Positions 2,689-30,186 of a stretch of 64,000 bases of DNA are shown here, piece after piece (position 1 is the stretch's first letter; every line of letters starts with the position of its first letter). The position numbers and the translations under genes are program-made. The DNA lies in NCBI GenBank assembly GCA_000158135.1, contig DS999531.1:2460051-2524050 (forward strand), in the 5' to 3' direction. The DNA is from Rhodobacteraceae bacterium KLH11 (lineage in GTDB: Bacteria; Pseudomonadota; Alphaproteobacteria; Rhodobacterales; Rhodobacteraceae). The notes beneath the pieces are model-generated. The model ran no database searches. It was not told the DNA's origin and was given only the letters and a program-made list of their open reading frames with translations.

Positions 2689-3678
2689 TCAGGCGTAAAT
2701 GTCGGTCCAAAGCTCGTCCAGCGACGGCTCGGGGCTTTCTTTTGAGAATTCGGCGGCCTGGTTGACGATCTCTTTGATTTCCTTGTCGATCGCTTTCAGG
2801 TCGTCTTCACTGGCGTGTTTCCCGGTCAGCAGCAGCTCGCGCACATGTTCAATCGGGTCGCTTTGCTCGCGAACCTTCTGAACCTCTTCGCGGGTCCGGT
2901 ACTTGGCCGGGTCGGACATCGAGTGGCCACGATAGCGGTATGTCTTCACTTCCAGAATGTAAGGGCCTTTGCCCGCGCGGCAGTGGGCGACAGCTTTCTC
3001 ACCCGCTTCTTTGACCGCCAGAACATCCATACCGTTGACGATTTCGCCGGGAATGCCGAAAGCCTCGCCACGGTGATAGATATCTTTGGTCGAGGTCGAG
3101 CGTGTCTGAGCCGTGCCCATGGCGTATTGGTTGTTCTCAATCACGAAGATCACGGGAAGATCCCAAATGGCGGCCATGTTGAACGTCTCATAGACCTGAC
3201 CCTGGTTTGCAGCACCATCGCCGAAATAGGTGAAGGTGACACCGCCATTCTCTTTGTATTTGTCCGCGAAGGCGAGACCCGCGCCAAGCGGAACCTGCGC
3301 GCCGACGATACCGTGGCCACCATAGAAGTGTTTCTCTTTCGAGAACATGTGCATCGAGCCGCCTTTGCCCTTGGACAGGCCCCCTTCACGCCCGGTAAGT
3401 TCGGCCATCACACCGCCGGGTTCCATGCCGCAGGCCAGCATGTGACCATGATCGCGGTAAGAGGTAATCCGCTTGTCACCTTCTTTCGCGGCTGCTTCGA
3501 GGCCGACCACGACAGCTTCCTGTCCGATATAAAGGTGGCAGAACCCACCGATCAGACCCATGCCGTAAAGCTGACCTGCTTTTTCCTCGAATCGGCGGAT
3601 CAGCAGCATCTCTCGGTAGTAGGTTTTGAGTTCCTCCGCAGAAACATTTGGTTTCTTTGTGGTTTTTCGCGCAGCCAT
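2689..3678 (-). CDS. pdhA: Pyruvate dehydrogenase E1 component, alpha subunit
   Basis: Alpha subunit of pyruvate dehydrogenase E1, 329 residues. The thiamine-diphosphate motif runs from GDGAANQGQ to ENNQYAMGT, and the loop YRYRGHSMSDPAKYR matches the E1-alpha phosphorylation-loop region. The ATG start is preceded by a purine-rich GGGGGAG about 10 bases upstream. First gene of the operon with pdhB and pdhC. A strong palindrome, shared with the lpdA promoter region, lies 26-47 bases upstream of the start and is the likely control site. Confidence 0.97.
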   Translation of the reverse strand: MAARKTTKKPNVSAEELKTYYREMLLIRRFEEKAGQLYGMGLIGGFCHLYIGQEAVVVGLEAAAKEGDKRITSYRDHGHMLACGMEPGGVMAELTGREGGLSKGKGGSMHMFSKEKHFYGGHGIVGAQVPLGAGLAFADKYKENGGVTFTYFGDGAANQGQVYETFNMAAIWDLPVIFVIENNQYAMGTAQTRSTSTKDIYHRGEAFGIPGEIVNGMDVLAVKEAGEKAVAHCRAGKGPYILEVKTYRYRGHSMSDPAKYRTREEVQKVREQSDPIEHVRELLLTGKHASEDDLKAIDKEIKEIVNQAAEFSKESPEPSLDELWTDIYA

Positions 3679-25345: not shown

Positions 25346-25415
25346 TCGGGGCATTGCGACCTGCCGGTTGCCGGACTATCTAAAGCACAACTCAGGCTGT
25401 TCCGGACCCGCCCTC

Positions 25416-26537
25416 ATGTCCCTCAATCACGTGCGCCCATGGCGCGACATCTATCGCCGCAAATCCCGCCAGATCATGGTCGGCAATGTGCCGGTTGGCG
25501 GCGACGCACCCATCGCCGTTCAGACCATGACCAATACGCTGACCACCGATGTGGCCGCGACCGTGGCGCAAGTGCAGGCCGCGGCAGAGGCTGGTGCGGA
25601 TATCGTGCGCGTGTCGGTTCCGGATGAGGCATCAGCGAAAGCCCTGAAAGAGATCGTGCGCGAAAGCCCGGTGCCCATCGTCGCCGACATTCATTTCCAC
25701 TATCGCCGGGGGATCGAGGCCGCCGAGGCCGGTGCTGCCTGTCTGCGGATCAATCCCGGCAATATCGGTGATGAGAAACGGGTGAAAGAGGTGATCAAAG
25801 CGGCGCGCGACCATGATTGCTCGATCCGTATTGGCGTGAATGCGGGCAGTCTGGAAAAGCATCTGTTGGATAAATACGCCGAACCATGCCCCGAGGCGAT
25901 GGTGGAAAGCGGGCTGGAACATATCCGCATTCTGGAAGACAACGACTTTCACAACTTCAAGATCAGCGTGAAGGCCAGCGATGTGTTCCTGTCGGCTGCT
26001 GCCTATCAGGGCATTGCTGAGGCCACGGATGCGCCGATCCATCTGGGCATTACCGAGGCCGGAGGGCTGGTCAGCGGCACCATCAAATCGGCCATCGGTC
26101 TGGGCAATCTGTTGTGGATGGGCATCGGTGACACCATCCGCGTCAGCCTGTCTGCCGACCCGGTGGAAGAGGTCAAGGTTGGCTTTGAAATCCTCAAATC
26201 CCTGGGCCTGCGTCATCGCGGAGTGAACATTATATCATGCCCCTCCTGCGCGCGGCAGGGTTTTGATGTGATCAAAACCGTTGAAGAACTGGAACACCGG
26301 CTGGAGCACATCAAAACGCCGATGTCTCTGTCGATCATCGGCTGCGTCGTGAACGGCCCCGGCGAGGCCCTGATGACCGATGTGGGCTTCACCGGCGGCG
26401 GCGCCGGGTCTGGGATGGTCTATCTGGCGGGCAAGGCCAGCCACAAGATGTCAAATGACCAGATGATCGACCATATCGTTGAAGAGGTCGAGAAGAAGGC
26501 GGCCGAGCTGGATGCAGCAGTTGAGGCCGCAGAATAG
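25416..26537 (+). CDS. ispG: 4-hydroxy-3-methylbut-2-enyl diphosphate synthase
   Basis: Penultimate enzyme of the MEP isoprenoid pathway, a [4Fe-4S] protein of 373 residues. The TIM-barrel N-terminus has [20 protein letters not shown] and the C-terminal cluster domain has [12 protein letters not shown] and [11 protein letters not shown], giving the three cysteine ligands. The ATG at 25416 starts the conserved N-terminus. It ends four bases from the convergent Rieske-like gene. Confidence 0.97.
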
Positions 26538-26541
26538 GGGT

Positions 26542-27117
26542 TTATCTCGGCACTGACAGTCTTGAAATCTCAAGAACCAGCGACTGCCGGTCTTCAGTAA
26601 AGCTAATCGGGTGCGTCGTTAGATTTTCCCGCGCTGGCCCTCGTTGCGGGCGGCCCCATGTATCAAAATGCGTACCCCGGCATGGATCGAAGAACCCGTC
26701 GAAATCGCCAGCTTTTGTAAGAACGATACATCCAAAGCCCGCCGTGCTTATGGGGCTGACCACGAACCATTCCATGCGTGCATAAGCCTCAGGGCCAAGT
26801 TCGCGCGCAAGCGATCCGTTGTTCAGAAACTCAGTCCAATCTTCCAAGGGGATATCTGGTTCAGCCTGCGCCATCGCTGTTGCTATTTCTTCAAGGTCGC
26901 TTCGCCAAATGACCACTGGCCTTCCCGCGATGCGCAGGTTTCTGACTTCGCCCGGCTCCCAGCTTTCTATTGGTACAGAGTATACTCTGGGTTGATATTG
27001 TGCCTTGACGTCCGCTGTCGGTTTCATGCTGGAAAACAGAAACATCAGGCCAATTGCAGCCATCAACAGCACCCACCCGGCTGTCAAATAGTACAGAAAA
27101 ACGCCTTTTTTCAACAT
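26542..27117 (-). CDS. Rieske-like membrane protein lacking the iron-sulfur ligands
   Basis: A 191-residue protein with one N-terminal membrane helix (about 6-28) and a periplasmic domain that follows the cytochrome bc1 Rieske subunit: LRIAGRPVVIWRSDLEEIA matches its membrane-proximal strand, FGCIVLTKAGDFDGFF and DPCRGTHFDTWGRPQRGPA match both cluster loops. The usual C-T-H-x-G-C is T-A-G-F-G-C and C-P-C-H is D-P-C-R, so both ligand cysteines and both histidines are gone while the two disulfide cysteines (C130, C146) remain. It cannot hold a Rieske cluster; role unknown. A TTG start at 27147 (201 residues) is the alternative. Confidence 0.75.
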   Translation of the reverse strand: MLKKGVFLYYLTAGWVLLMAAIGLMFLFSSMKPTADVKAQYQPRVYSVPIESWEPGEVRNLRIAGRPVVIWRSDLEEIATAMAQAEPDIPLEDWTEFLNNGSLARELGPEAYARMEWFVVSPISTAGFGCIVLTKAGDFDGFFDPCRGTHFDTWGRPQRGPARENLTTHPISFTEDRQSLVLEISRLSVPR

Positions 27118-27239
27118 GATGGATTTGCTCGGAACGGGTGCATTCAATCACGCTTTGGTTGAATGCTTATAGACACGCCTTTCCATTTGGAAGCGCGTTT
27201 TAACTGATCTGTTTGTTTTGGAAAGGCAGAAAAATTGGG

Positions 27240-27800
27240 TTACTCGCTAACCTTCGGATAGATAAACCCGTTCACTGGATAGTGGCTGCCATACCGCCCC
27301 GGCTGGCTTTCGACCCGAACCAGCGTCCAATCGTTGTTTTTCGAGACATCCTTGACACCCATTTTCAACGATACCTTGTTGCGGTGCCAGTTGGCGTGGT
27401 TAATGATAACCTCCCGCTCGCTGACAACATTGGATACCACAGCCACGTGGCCCAAGGGCATACCTCTGGTTGCCCGAAACGACATCACCGCACCGACAAC
27501 CGGTTCGTTGCCCCGCTCAAACATATTGCGCGCCTTACCCCACCAGTCCTTGGCATTGCCGCGAATTTCAATTCCGCTGAGGTTTCGTGCATAGGGCACG
27601 CACCACACCCTATGTCCGCGGGCGTGCTTTTTGGAAACTTCTTGCAGCGCCATGAATTGACGCTCTGGATTGAGGGCTGCGTCATTTGTGCTCTGGCTGC
27701 AGGCAGAGACAAGACCGAAAAGCCCCAACGCGATCACAATTCGGACTGCACCGGGCAGGCGCAGCCCAATCGAAATTGCTTTGCGGTCGCTGTTTTTCAA
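27240..27800 (-). CDS. CHAP-domain lipoprotein (putative peptidoglycan amidase)
   Basis: A 186-residue lipoprotein: basic n-region, hydrophobic segment and lipobox LVSAC (C34), then a CHAP-like domain with the nucleophile candidate in HRVWCVPYAR (about C67) and the histidine in LGHVAVVSNV. CHAP enzymes cut amide bonds in peptidoglycan or glutathionyl-spermidine. The TTG at 27800 is chosen because it yields a clean signal peptide; a GTG at 27902 would add 34 unlikely residues. It lies directly upstream of the Rieske-like gene on the same strand. Confidence 0.72.
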   Translation of the reverse strand: MKNSDRKAISIGLRLPGAVRIVIALGLFGLVSACSQSTNDAALNPERQFMALQEVSKKHARGHRVWCVPYARNLSGIEIRGNAKDWWGKARNMFERGNEPVVGAVMSFRATRGMPLGHVAVVSNVVSEREVIINHANWHRNKVSLKMGVKDVSKNNDWTLVRVESQPGRYGSHYPVNGFIYPKVSE

Positions 27801-28069
27801 GGAGCTTTGTTGCCTGTTTGAGTGGTGATGGTTTTTTACGGTTTTTTCATGGGGTATGAAAAGACCACCACCGGTTTCCCGGCAAAATTCCGCCAATTCC
27901 ACACGTCGCAGCCAGCCGTGTGGCTGAATTCGTCAGCCCGTCTGTGTCTCTGGAAGAATACCGCGCTGGGATAAACAGCTTGCGATGGGGTGAGAACGGG
28001 CCACGGTAACACGTTTGTGGCCCGGCTCTCGGATCGATGCGAGCGGGGCGACTGTGCCGCCCCCTGTCT

Positions 28070-28828
28070 TTAGCTTTGTTCAGCCCGCACACCGTCTGCG
28101 ATCTGCTGCATTTGCGGTGCAGGCAGGAAGCCGCGCAGCATTTCGGTGCCCAGTACGAAAGAGGGCGTGCCGGATATCTGCAATCTCTGGGCCAGCAGGC
28201 GGGTTTGGGTGATTTCCTCGGTTACGGCATCGCTGTTCATGGCCGCCAGAATGGCGTCAGTATCCAGCCCCAGCCCGTCCGAGAGACGGCGCAGGGTGAC
28301 CTCGGTGGGCTCGCCACTGAATTCCAGCAGGGCATCGTGGACCTGTTTATATGCATCATCGCCCGCAACATGCTTGGTCGCCACGGCAAAACGCGATGAG
28401 ACGACAGAGGCGTCGCCCAGAATCGGAAGCTCTTTGATGACCAGACGGATATTGCCATCAGCGGCCAGCAGGCTGGCGATTTCTGATACCGCACGGCGGC
28501 AATAGCCGCAGCGGTAATCCATGAACTCGACCAGAGTGATATCGCCATCGGGGTTGCCGCCCACCCAGCTATAGCCATCGTTGAACAGCGCGTCCGCGTT
28601 GGCGGCGACCAGTTCCTTGTCGGCTGCGGCTTCGGCTGCGGCGTTGCGTTCTTCAAGGATATTGATGGCTTCGATGATCACCTGAGGGTTCTGCAGAAGG
28701 TAATCGCGCACCTGTGCGCCAAACTCGACCTTCTCGGCCTCGCTCATTGCGTTCAGGTCCAGCGCCTGTGCCGGGCCTGTGATCATCGAAAGGCCCAACA
28801 GGGCCGGTGCTGCATGTTTAAGGATCAT
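28070..28828 (-). CDS. DsbA family periplasmic thiol oxidoreductase
   Basis: Exported thioredoxin-fold protein of 252 residues with a signal peptide ending around PAQALD, the redox site RCGYCRRAV and the cis-proline SGTPSFVLG. An N-terminal helical extension (about 25-85) is typical of the Com1/BdbD-like branch. The ATG overlaps the stop of the upstream M48 gene by four bases (ATGA), so the two are translationally coupled. Its AAGGAAACGGAA leader is inside the M48 gene. Confidence 0.93.
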   Translation of the reverse strand: MILKHAAPALLGLSMITGPAQALDLNAMSEAEKVEFGAQVRDYLLQNPQVIIEAINILEERNAAAEAAADKELVAANADALFNDGYSWVGGNPDGDITLVEFMDYRCGYCRRAVSEIASLLAADGNIRLVIKELPILGDASVVSSRFAVATKHVAGDDAYKQVHDALLEFSGEPTEVTLRRLSDGLGLDTDAILAAMNSDAVTEEITQTRLLAQRLQISGTPSFVLGTEMLRGFLPAPQMQQIADGVRAEQS

Positions 28829-30186
28829 TTCCGTTTCCTTTTCTTTTTCTTGTCTGCGCGCTCCGAGGCGATCAGCACATCCTGTGCCCTTTGCCACCCC
28901 GGAGAGCCTTCGGGCAGTCGTGCGACAGCCCGTCTTGCGTGGATGCCAGCATCGGCCAAACGGCCCTGCAGCGCATATCGTTCAGCGGTCACAGCCGCCG
29001 CCATTCCGTCATTGCCCACTTGTGAATAGGCCAGGCCCAGATCACGCATGAGCCGGACATTCCGGTCATCTCTTGCACGCGCCTTTTCAAGCACTTGCAG
29101 GGCTTTCTTCGTCTGGCCATCAACCAGCAGCGCACGCCCGTAACCCGCCAGAATAAGCGCGTCGTTGGGCGACATTTCAACCGCCGCGCCATAGGCTGCA
29201 ACAGCGTCTTTCAGATACCGGCTTTCCAGAAGAATCTGGCCCTTCAGGTCGTAGAAATATGGGTCATCGGGGCGCAGTTCCAAGGCACCATCTATTGCGG
29301 CACGAGCGCGCACCAAATCACGATTTTGATGGTGGGCCGAGGCTTCGCGCATCAGGCGGATGTCGCGATTGCTTTCTTCATGGGCCCGGCGCAGCGTCCA
29401 GTTGGGCGAGCGCAAAAAGGCCGATAGCTTGCCCTTGATCCGGGCGAACCAGTAATCGGCATTGGCGTTCTGTTTGGCCTGATCGCCGAATTCGACCAGA
29501 AACGCCTCGGCTGCGCGCAACCGTTCGCGGCTGCTGGGGTGCGAGCGCATATATGGATCCTGGTTGGCCTCACTCAGCAGTTCCTGACCGGCGAATTTGC
29601 GATGCAGATTGACCATCCCGCGCGGCGAGATTCCGGCCCACCGCAAATAGCTGGCGGCGCTGCGATCGGCCGAGGCTTCTTCGGCCCGGGTATGACCCAG
29701 AAAACTGCGCAAAGCCGAGGCCTGCGTGCCTGCAGCGATGCCCGCCGCAGCGCGCCCGCCACCGGCGGCGGCCGTTGCCAGCGCCAGCAAGGTGCCAAGC
29801 TGTGCATTGCGTTGCGCCGCCCGCAGGTTTTCGCTGCGCCGGGCCAGATGACCGTTGGCGATATGCGCCGCCTCATGGGCGATCACGGCCTGCAGCATCT
29901 CGGGGGTTTCGACCGACAGGATCAGGCCATAGTTGATATAAATGGTGTTATAATCGATGACGAAGGCGTTGAACGTGCTGTCATTGACCACCAGCACCCG
30001 CACGCGATTGGTGTTCAGGCCAGCGGCGCGCAGTATTGGAAAGGCCAGCTCACGCAGGCCATGCTCGATATCGGGGTCGCGGATCAGGCTTTGCGCACTG
30101 GCCTGTGCTGCGCTGATCACCCATGCCATCACAACCAGCACCAAGGCCGGGATTGACGCCAGCCGGGATACGCGTTCAAAAGCCAT
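28825..30186 (-). CDS. M48 family metalloprotease with TPR repeats (BepA-like)
   Basis: Periplasmic zinc protease of 453 residues: signal peptide (about 1-33), M48 domain with HEAAHIANGH and the downstream glutamate in EEASADRSAAS, then TPR-like helices (about 290-440) and a lysine-rich tail. The layout matches BepA/YfgC, an outer-membrane assembly quality-control protease. The ATG at 30186 starts a proper signal sequence. It is coupled to a DsbA-like gene, linking proteolysis and disulfide formation of envelope proteins. Confidence 0.9.
   Translation of the reverse strand: MAFERVSRLASIPALVLVVMAWVISAAQASAQSLIRDPDIEHGLRELAFPILRAAGLNTNRVRVLVVNDSTFNAFVIDYNTIYINYGLILSVETPEMLQAVIAHEAAHIANGHLARRSENLRAAQRNAQLGTLLALATAAAGGGRAAAGIAAGTQASALRSFLGHTRAEEASADRSAASYLRWAGISPRGMVNLHRKFAGQELLSEANQDPYMRSHPSSRERLRAAEAFLVEFGDQAKQNANADYWFARIKGKLSAFLRSPNWTLRRAHEESNRDIRLMREASAHHQNRDLVRARAAIDGALELRPDDPYFYDLKGQILLESRYLKDAVAAYGAAVEMSPNDALILAGYGRALLVDGQTKKALQVLEKARARDDRNVRLMRDLGLAYSQVGNDGMAAAVTAERYALQGRLADAGIHARRAVARLPEGSPGWQRAQDVLIASERADKKKKRKRK

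Follow-up and report, generated by a model that had tools for sequence, protein, structure and literature searches.

A mobile, ligand-free Rieske-fold protein family in Rhodobacteraceae with a candidate non-redox role at the cytochrome bc1 complex

The iron-sulfur cluster is what defines a respiratory Rieske protein. A cluster-free member of the Rieske fold is NirD, a soluble cytoplasmic subunit of nitrite reductase. Within the bc1 branch, the reference protein is PetA (TIGR01416), while orphan second Rieske proteins (petA2-like, W-type) are encoded by extra genes besides the one of the bc1 complex and keep all cluster ligands. For Rhodospirillum and Rubrivivax, such extra copies are described as functionally redundant with the Rieske protein of the bc1 cluster in PMC6256036.

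The protein family presented here, carried by some marine Rhodobacteraceae and encountered in a stretch of 64,000 nucleotides (hereafter the window), can be set against these systems. With PetA it shares the length, the single N-terminal helix, the bc1-type hinge, the predicted head fold, the disulfide cysteines and the G-P loop, and the window protein is 31-38% identical to 15 Rhodobacteraceae PetA-type rows of one alignment (A2). Unlike PetA, the family lacks the four [2Fe-2S] ligands as well as the twin-arginine motif, features a more hydrophobic helix and is encoded outside petABC by a mobile, accessory gene; moreover, the window protein falls below the TIGR01416 cut-off. NirD also has a Rieske fold devoid of cluster ligands, but the window protein is membrane-anchored and of bc1 type; NirD was not among the 50 rows listed in the structure comparison, an absence that excludes nothing. 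Like the orphan second Rieske genes, the window gene is an additional Rieske gene next to that of bc1, and the tryptophan that marks the W-type at the column of residue 71 occurs in 14 of 14 intact family members as well; the retention of all ligands sets the orphan proteins apart from the family. In the open-licence PMC literature, which mostly leaves subscription journals outside, nothing was recognised as a cluster-free bc1-type Rieske family, in agreement with the statement of a sequence-only reading of this DNA that such a protein had not been described.

The family is a natural example of a Rieske scaffold uncoupled from its redox role, in which a bc1-type branch dropped ligands, Tat motif and operon, yet retained the tip as its most constrained part. 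It makes testable whether the Rieske docking surface can serve a purpose by itself, such as the control of bc1, and would illustrate how evolution can move a protein from Tat to Sec following the loss of a cofactor.

The window protein and its cluster ligands

The sequence-only reading proposed a Rieske-fold protein that had kept the disulfide cysteines but lost all four ligands, and suggested comparing its predicted structure with bc1 Rieske subunits, placing it in a phylogeny with petA, surveying for orthologues with the same substitutions and measuring dN/dS. Its coordinates are right; the strand, which it did not give, is minus (ORF 27117..26542). The features of the gene are as follows:

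26542..27117, minus strand: coding sequence of the cluster-free Rieske protein (P0001), 191 aa, ATG at 27117, stop at 26544-26542
27106..27111, minus strand: Lys-Lys codons (residues 3-4) at the place of the twin-arginine Tat motif of PetA (motif count, alignment)
27028..27096, minus strand: transmembrane helix, residues 8-30 (model helix 4-30, hydrophobicity)
27007..27021, minus strand: bc1-type hinge P-T-A-D-V, residues 33-37 (family alignment)
26728..26748, minus strand: residues 124-130, S-T-A-G-F-G-C (former cluster box I), with neither ligand but with disulfide Cys130
26677..26688, minus strand: residues 144-147, D-P-C-R (former cluster box II), with neither ligand but with disulfide Cys146

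A search of 26400-27400 yielded no sigma-70-like promoter. The window protein matches bc1 Rieske chains at 1e-17 (phmmer vs PDB), and a profile of the 14 intact family members finds such chains in the PDB at 4e-29. The NCBIfam model TIGR01416 covers residues 7-180 of the window protein (1.5e-16), albeit with 60.9 bits and thus below the cut-off of 97.4 bits, and is matched by 14/14 intact members, while Pfam yielded zero matches for the window protein and no Rieske family for any of the 14. The normal petA of the same genome is found at G000:C5:66869-67390, beside the only cytochrome b match of this genome, and its product is 37% identical to the window protein.

The loss of the ligands with retention of the disulfide cysteines was borne out throughout the family: in 16/16 full-length homologues none of the four ligands and both cysteines are present. 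When the 14 intact members are aligned with 65 distinct Rieske proteins that bear the ligands (numbering of the PetA of the window genome), the ligand columns C137, H139, C156 and H159, invariant in the 65, are occupied in the family by S, N or D, by G (14/14), by D (14/14) and by R, Q, A or E, respectively. The disulfide columns C142 and C158 hold cysteine in 14/14, from which the presence of the bond itself is inferred. Exactly two cysteines occur in 14 of the 16 full-length homologues, and L082 and L083 possess an extra one in the membrane helix. The pairing of box I proposed in the sequence-only reading stood only in part: the ligands are indeed gone, but S-T-A-G-F-G-C is one residue longer than C-T-H-x-G-C and the pairing depends on the alignment, although neither pairing places a Cys or His of the window protein at any ligand position. 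As controls, 97 other Rieske proteins (69, which include the 65 distinct ones, plus 28), being the best search matches and no random sample, all kept the six residues, i.e. four ligands and two cysteines; box I of the second control set (n=28) reads C-T-H in 27 proteins and C-S-H in L151. The uniformity of the controls indicates that the ligand loss is not a matter of chance. Since no residue known to hold a Rieske [2Fe-2S] cluster is left, the family is not expected to transfer electrons as Rieske proteins do.

Distribution, mobility and origin

Eighteen loci were collected, comprising 16 full-length homologues (window, L078-L091 and L134) and two remnants (L069, L092); 14 of the full-length copies are intact, and L083 and L090 carry one in-frame TGA each. 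All 16 lack the ligands and no ligand-retaining orthologue was found; the losses noticed in the window protein recur family-wide. Homologues or remnants occur in Ruegeria, Shimia, Tateyamaria, Pseudophaeobacter, Silicimonas and Alg231_04. Scanning named genomes by exact peptide patterns only, which may miss more distant members, accounts for 15 loci, found in Ruegeria conchae, R. arenilitoris, R. denitrificans, R. halocynthiae, R. atlantica and other Ruegeria and, outside this genus, in a Shimia MAG, Tateyamaria, Pseudophaeobacter leonis, Alg231_04 and, as a remnant, Silicimonas. At the level of the genus, 11 of 54 genomes (including that of the window) encode a full-length homologue that clearly exceeds the petA background, and a fragment occurs in one. 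The family-wide survey of 295 genomes added one, G193, among the matches listed in order of E-value, and the order-wide survey of 390 genomes with a 10-sequence profile yielded seven matches of at least 238 bits, the next best scoring 110.5, of which only G370 was new; among 115 genomes of the class, none but the window's own exceeded the petA level. The gene is not essential, given that most genomes of the genus lack it and that 4/18 loci hold only a broken or reduced copy. It is no lone decaying copy, but a patchy accessory gene that sometimes decays (two interrupted copies and two remnants among 18 loci). The TGA codons of L083 and L090 are located at tryptophan columns, namely at residue 117 (Trp in 15 others) and residue 53, the latter being Trp in the other Ruegeria copies of the same branch and Phe, Leu or Met in the remainder.

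The neighbouring genes in the window are:

25368..26537, plus strand: ispG (GcpE), PF04551 5.9e-143, convergent, its stop 4 bases from that of the Rieske-like gene
27240..27902, minus strand: CHAP-domain protein, PF05257 1.8e-14, between the DsbA/ScsC-like and Rieske-like genes
28070..28897, minus strand: DsbA/ScsC-like thioredoxin-fold protein, PF01323 4.7e-20 and PF18312 5e-13, border of the variable site

Neighbours other than these three were named by eye. The ispG gene adjoins the Rieske-like gene in seven other Ruegeria loci too, and the resulting eight loci, seven of them full-length (two interrupted) plus the L069 remnant, sit between a DsbA/ScsC-like gene and ispG. The Shimia-type loci L085 and L134 have another site in common (171/191 residues of their proteins are identical), and the remaining loci have differing surroundings. 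Except within the ispG group and the Shimia-type pair, no neighbour genes common to different sites were seen. The host sites are variable within the genus. In a comparison confined to 33 ispG loci (the genus survey comprised 54 genomes), a trace of the gene was found only in genomes that carry it at the ispG site and in G326. The CHAP gene, another accessory gene of this variable site, also occurs next to ispG in R. conchae, G306, G324, G345 and G338 (cut by a contig end), most of which lack the Rieske-like gene at this site.

The loci L086, L087 and L088 have a common unit of ~770 bp with 86-87% DNA identity, encompassing the gene, ~150 bp upstream and ~50 bp downstream, and a search for DNA similarity in their flanks on both strands found none. 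Across these three genomes, dS amounts to 0.26-0.28 for the Rieske-like gene vs 1.31-1.59 for ispG. Hence, a unit of this size in unrelated surroundings with a low dS relative to ispG is the signature of a recent transfer of a single gene, and the comparison indicates that the window gene belongs to a patchy, horizontally moving accessory family, an aspect missed by the sequence-only reading. Mobility by way of a dispersed intergenic repeat found no support, as the pattern examined did not stand out from chance in the window (two found, 0.84 expected). In another set of Ruegeria loci (L190-L209), similarity to L087 stops with the gene of a J-domain protein in all 19 other loci; downstream of it, four loci inspected by eye contain different ORFs, marking a second variable spot.

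In the suggested phylogeny with petA, the homologues form one clade among Rieske proteins, supported by 100/100 in both trees and set on a very long stem. Both trees were built on subsampled rows. The first comprised 79 rows, with unsettled bootstrap and long branches; the second comprised 61 rows, from which the two interrupted copies and the long L091 had been dropped, and groups the family with W-type Rieske proteins (98/99). AU tests rejected none of the alternatives tried (p range 0.35-0.62; X+P1, p 0.469; P1+PW, p 0.354; X+P2, p 0.615), and placement X+P2 even had a likelihood 5.19 higher than the free tree. Over 48 columns diagnostic for the W-type, the summed match of the family is 7.4 for the W-type residue and, gap columns included, 15.1 for the petA1 state. 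For the sister group among Rhodobacteraceae Rieske proteins, the W-type orphan Rieske proteins are one candidate among several placements. Two kinds of ligand-bearing relatives were encountered along the way. A second Rieske protein of 182 aa is present at L049, L052, L053, L056, L057, L071-L073 and L075, in several Ruegeria and Alg231_04, and seems to be an orphan, with G334 and G193 having one cytochrome b match each. W-type proteins with intact ligands are encoded at L031 (1450-2049) and also at L035, L111, L113, L120, L125 and L128; at L031, the neighbours are genes that by eye encode a FabI-like dehydrogenase and a protein with a CBS domain, not petBC.

Export, fold and conserved tip

According to PMC7317946, bacterial Rieske proteins with a single helix carry a Tat signal that stays uncleaved; lysine in place of arginine is poorly tolerated by the Tat pathway, whereas in Sec signals lysine pairs far outnumber arginine pairs. 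An RRxF motif near the N-terminus is present in 92/96 ligand-bearing reference Rieske proteins, of which 27 rows had been pre-selected by the ligand motif with the C-S-H variant L151 dropped, vs no RR in any of the 16 family members, which mostly have lysines instead. Loss of the ligands goes together with loss of the Tat motif, which the sequence-only reading missed. As a second linked change absent from that reading, the helix is more hydrophobic in the family (Wimley-White octanol mean -0.37 vs -0.04, p 6.5e-9, the sequences being related and their relatedness ignored) and contains 9.0 Leu, Ile, Phe, Trp and Met residues vs 4.7 in reference Rieske proteins, likewise counted over non-independent sequences; W-P-L of the helix has mostly become Y-F-L in the alignment. 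Motif loss combined with a more hydrophobic helix is what is expected after a change from Tat to Sec, and such a switch following the loss of a cytoplasmically inserted cofactor is a likely explanation. With no cluster to be inserted in the cytoplasm, the protein would probably be exported unfolded by Sec and fold in the periplasm, where the two cysteines are likely to form the old Rieske disulfide.

The structure comparison agrees with the proposed fold, since both models predict a bc1 Rieske head plus one N-terminal helix. A model built from 10 family members alone reached pLDDT 74.8 and pTM 0.57, was lowest at the tip residues 124-129 and retrieved bc1 Rieske chains at the top rank of Foldseek (3.4e-8, probability 1.00). 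When the input was enlarged to 42 rows that included 28 true Rieske proteins, the values rose to pLDDT 90.5 and pTM 0.73, the best chains were again those of bc1 Rieske proteins (3.8e-11), and VIA-align against 1rie gave Z 15.1 over 117 aligned residues at an rmsd of 2.6 A; this second model is drawn toward the Rieske fold by its true Rieske rows, of which the family-only model is free.

The claim of an intact, membrane-anchored reading frame under selection likewise holds. Purifying selection is apparent from a dN/dS of 0.21-0.39 in the eight pairs with dS <1, three of which, including that with 0.39, involve an interrupted copy. The range over all pairs yielding a value is 0.14-0.39, but many pairs are saturated without a value and others have dS >2, so that weight is put only on the eight; all values stem from a home-made pairwise Nei-Gojobori calculation on 15 sequences (L134 left out) with the positions of stop codons omitted. 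Column entropy in the family is lowest in the former cluster loops (1.02 and 0.73 bits), vs 1.83 in the insert and 1.89 at the C-terminus. As ordinary PetA, too, varies little in these two loops compared with most of its length (0.33 and 0.26 bits), the low entropy may partly reflect the fold and not docking. Because the former cluster tip remains the most conserved part, a docking surface is probably in use. In the hinge, D36 is invariant in the 14 intact members, and P33, A35 and V37 occur in 13/14. The tip region has acquired the family-specific residues S121, G127, F142 and D144, each in at least 13/14. Two residues that we take to be cytochrome b contacts of the Rieske tip are not preserved: the position of Leu in C-T-H-L-G-C varies, and none of the 14 has the second Pro of G-P-A-P. 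As far as the sequences tell, selection kept the fold, the disulfide cysteines, the anchor, the hinge and a rebuilt tip, and the shape seems to have been maintained for a job other than electron carriage.

Candidate functions

Exactly one cytochrome b match was found in each of 28 genomes (16 with the gene and 12 without), which rules out a private cytochrome b partner; in the 16 gene-bearing genomes it lies on another contig or at least about 90 kb off. Hence, if the tip docks on a cytochrome b, it would be that of the normal bc1 complex. The remodelled but conserved tip, the bc1-type hinge and the helix may still dock on a partner, for which bc1, the sole cytochrome b complex of the cell, is the best candidate, with the window protein as a non-redox subunit that could act at the Rieske docking site as a brake, plug or decoy. 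We describe the protein as a mobile, membrane-anchored, disulfide-braced and ligand-free Rieske-fold accessory protein, whose best-candidate role as a non-redox bc1 subunit is tentative and has a little less than an even chance of being correct. The more specific proposal that a horizontally spreading pseudo-Rieske protein enters or plugs bc1 as a non-redox regulator or shield, having passed from Tat to Sec after cluster loss, is conceivable but rather unlikely. The roles put forward in the sequence-only reading, in bc1 assembly or as a structural factor of the envelope, are likewise conceivable.

The bc1-associated role is followed closely by an envelope function without any link to bc1, for which the Rieske fold would have been co-opted as a disulfide-stabilised periplasmic scaffold, for instance with a chaperone, stress- or surface-related function. 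We consider this a serious candidate, although the balance tips against it. A tip that was remodelled by the four family-specific residues, not merely stripped, speaks in its favour, and so does a mobile accessory gene without a link to petBC; the divergence of the helix and of the presumed cytochrome b contact residues supports it as well and weighs against bc1 docking. On the other hand, an adaptor of this kind accounts poorly for a bc1-type hinge (P-x-A-D-V) and a predicted fold that were kept through 14 diverged proteins, and for tip loops that stay the most conserved region, as expected for the same kind of docking surface.

Third in this ranking is a protective decoy or target mimic, a transferable shield of bc1 against an antibiotic, a bacteriocin or a phage factor at the Rieske docking site, which appears improbable. 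Horizontal spread as a single gene, patchy presence and repeated loss would fit a costly, conditionally useful protection gene, as would a divergence at the protein level far faster than that of ispG; yet no attacker is known, PADLOC gave no match, no phage or defence genes were seen by eye beside the Rieske-like gene and the viral contigs scanned contained no relative. The notion of a functionless, decaying petA duplicate finds its basis in the two TGA-interrupted copies and two remnants among the 18 loci, but it conflicts with 14 intact frames of which most pairs are <65% identical (down to 28%), with dN/dS well <1 and with the joint pattern of four lost ligands, two kept cysteines and strongest conservation in the tip. 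Selection data and the family-wide pattern thus oppose a lone decaying petA copy, and we deem it very improbable.

An origin as a phage or plasmid gene was examined separately and is opposed by the scan of viral contigs, which found no relative, and by a plasmid collection, in which all 84 records lie at <60% identity and the 20 of 84 among the matches listed are all annotated petA. The sole phage match, L135 (MT835550.1, 12776-19252; match at 3001-3477), is an intact, ligand-bearing petA on a scaffold from human faeces labelled 'UNVERIFIED: Bacteriophage sp.', and probably represents bacterial DNA in a phage collection.
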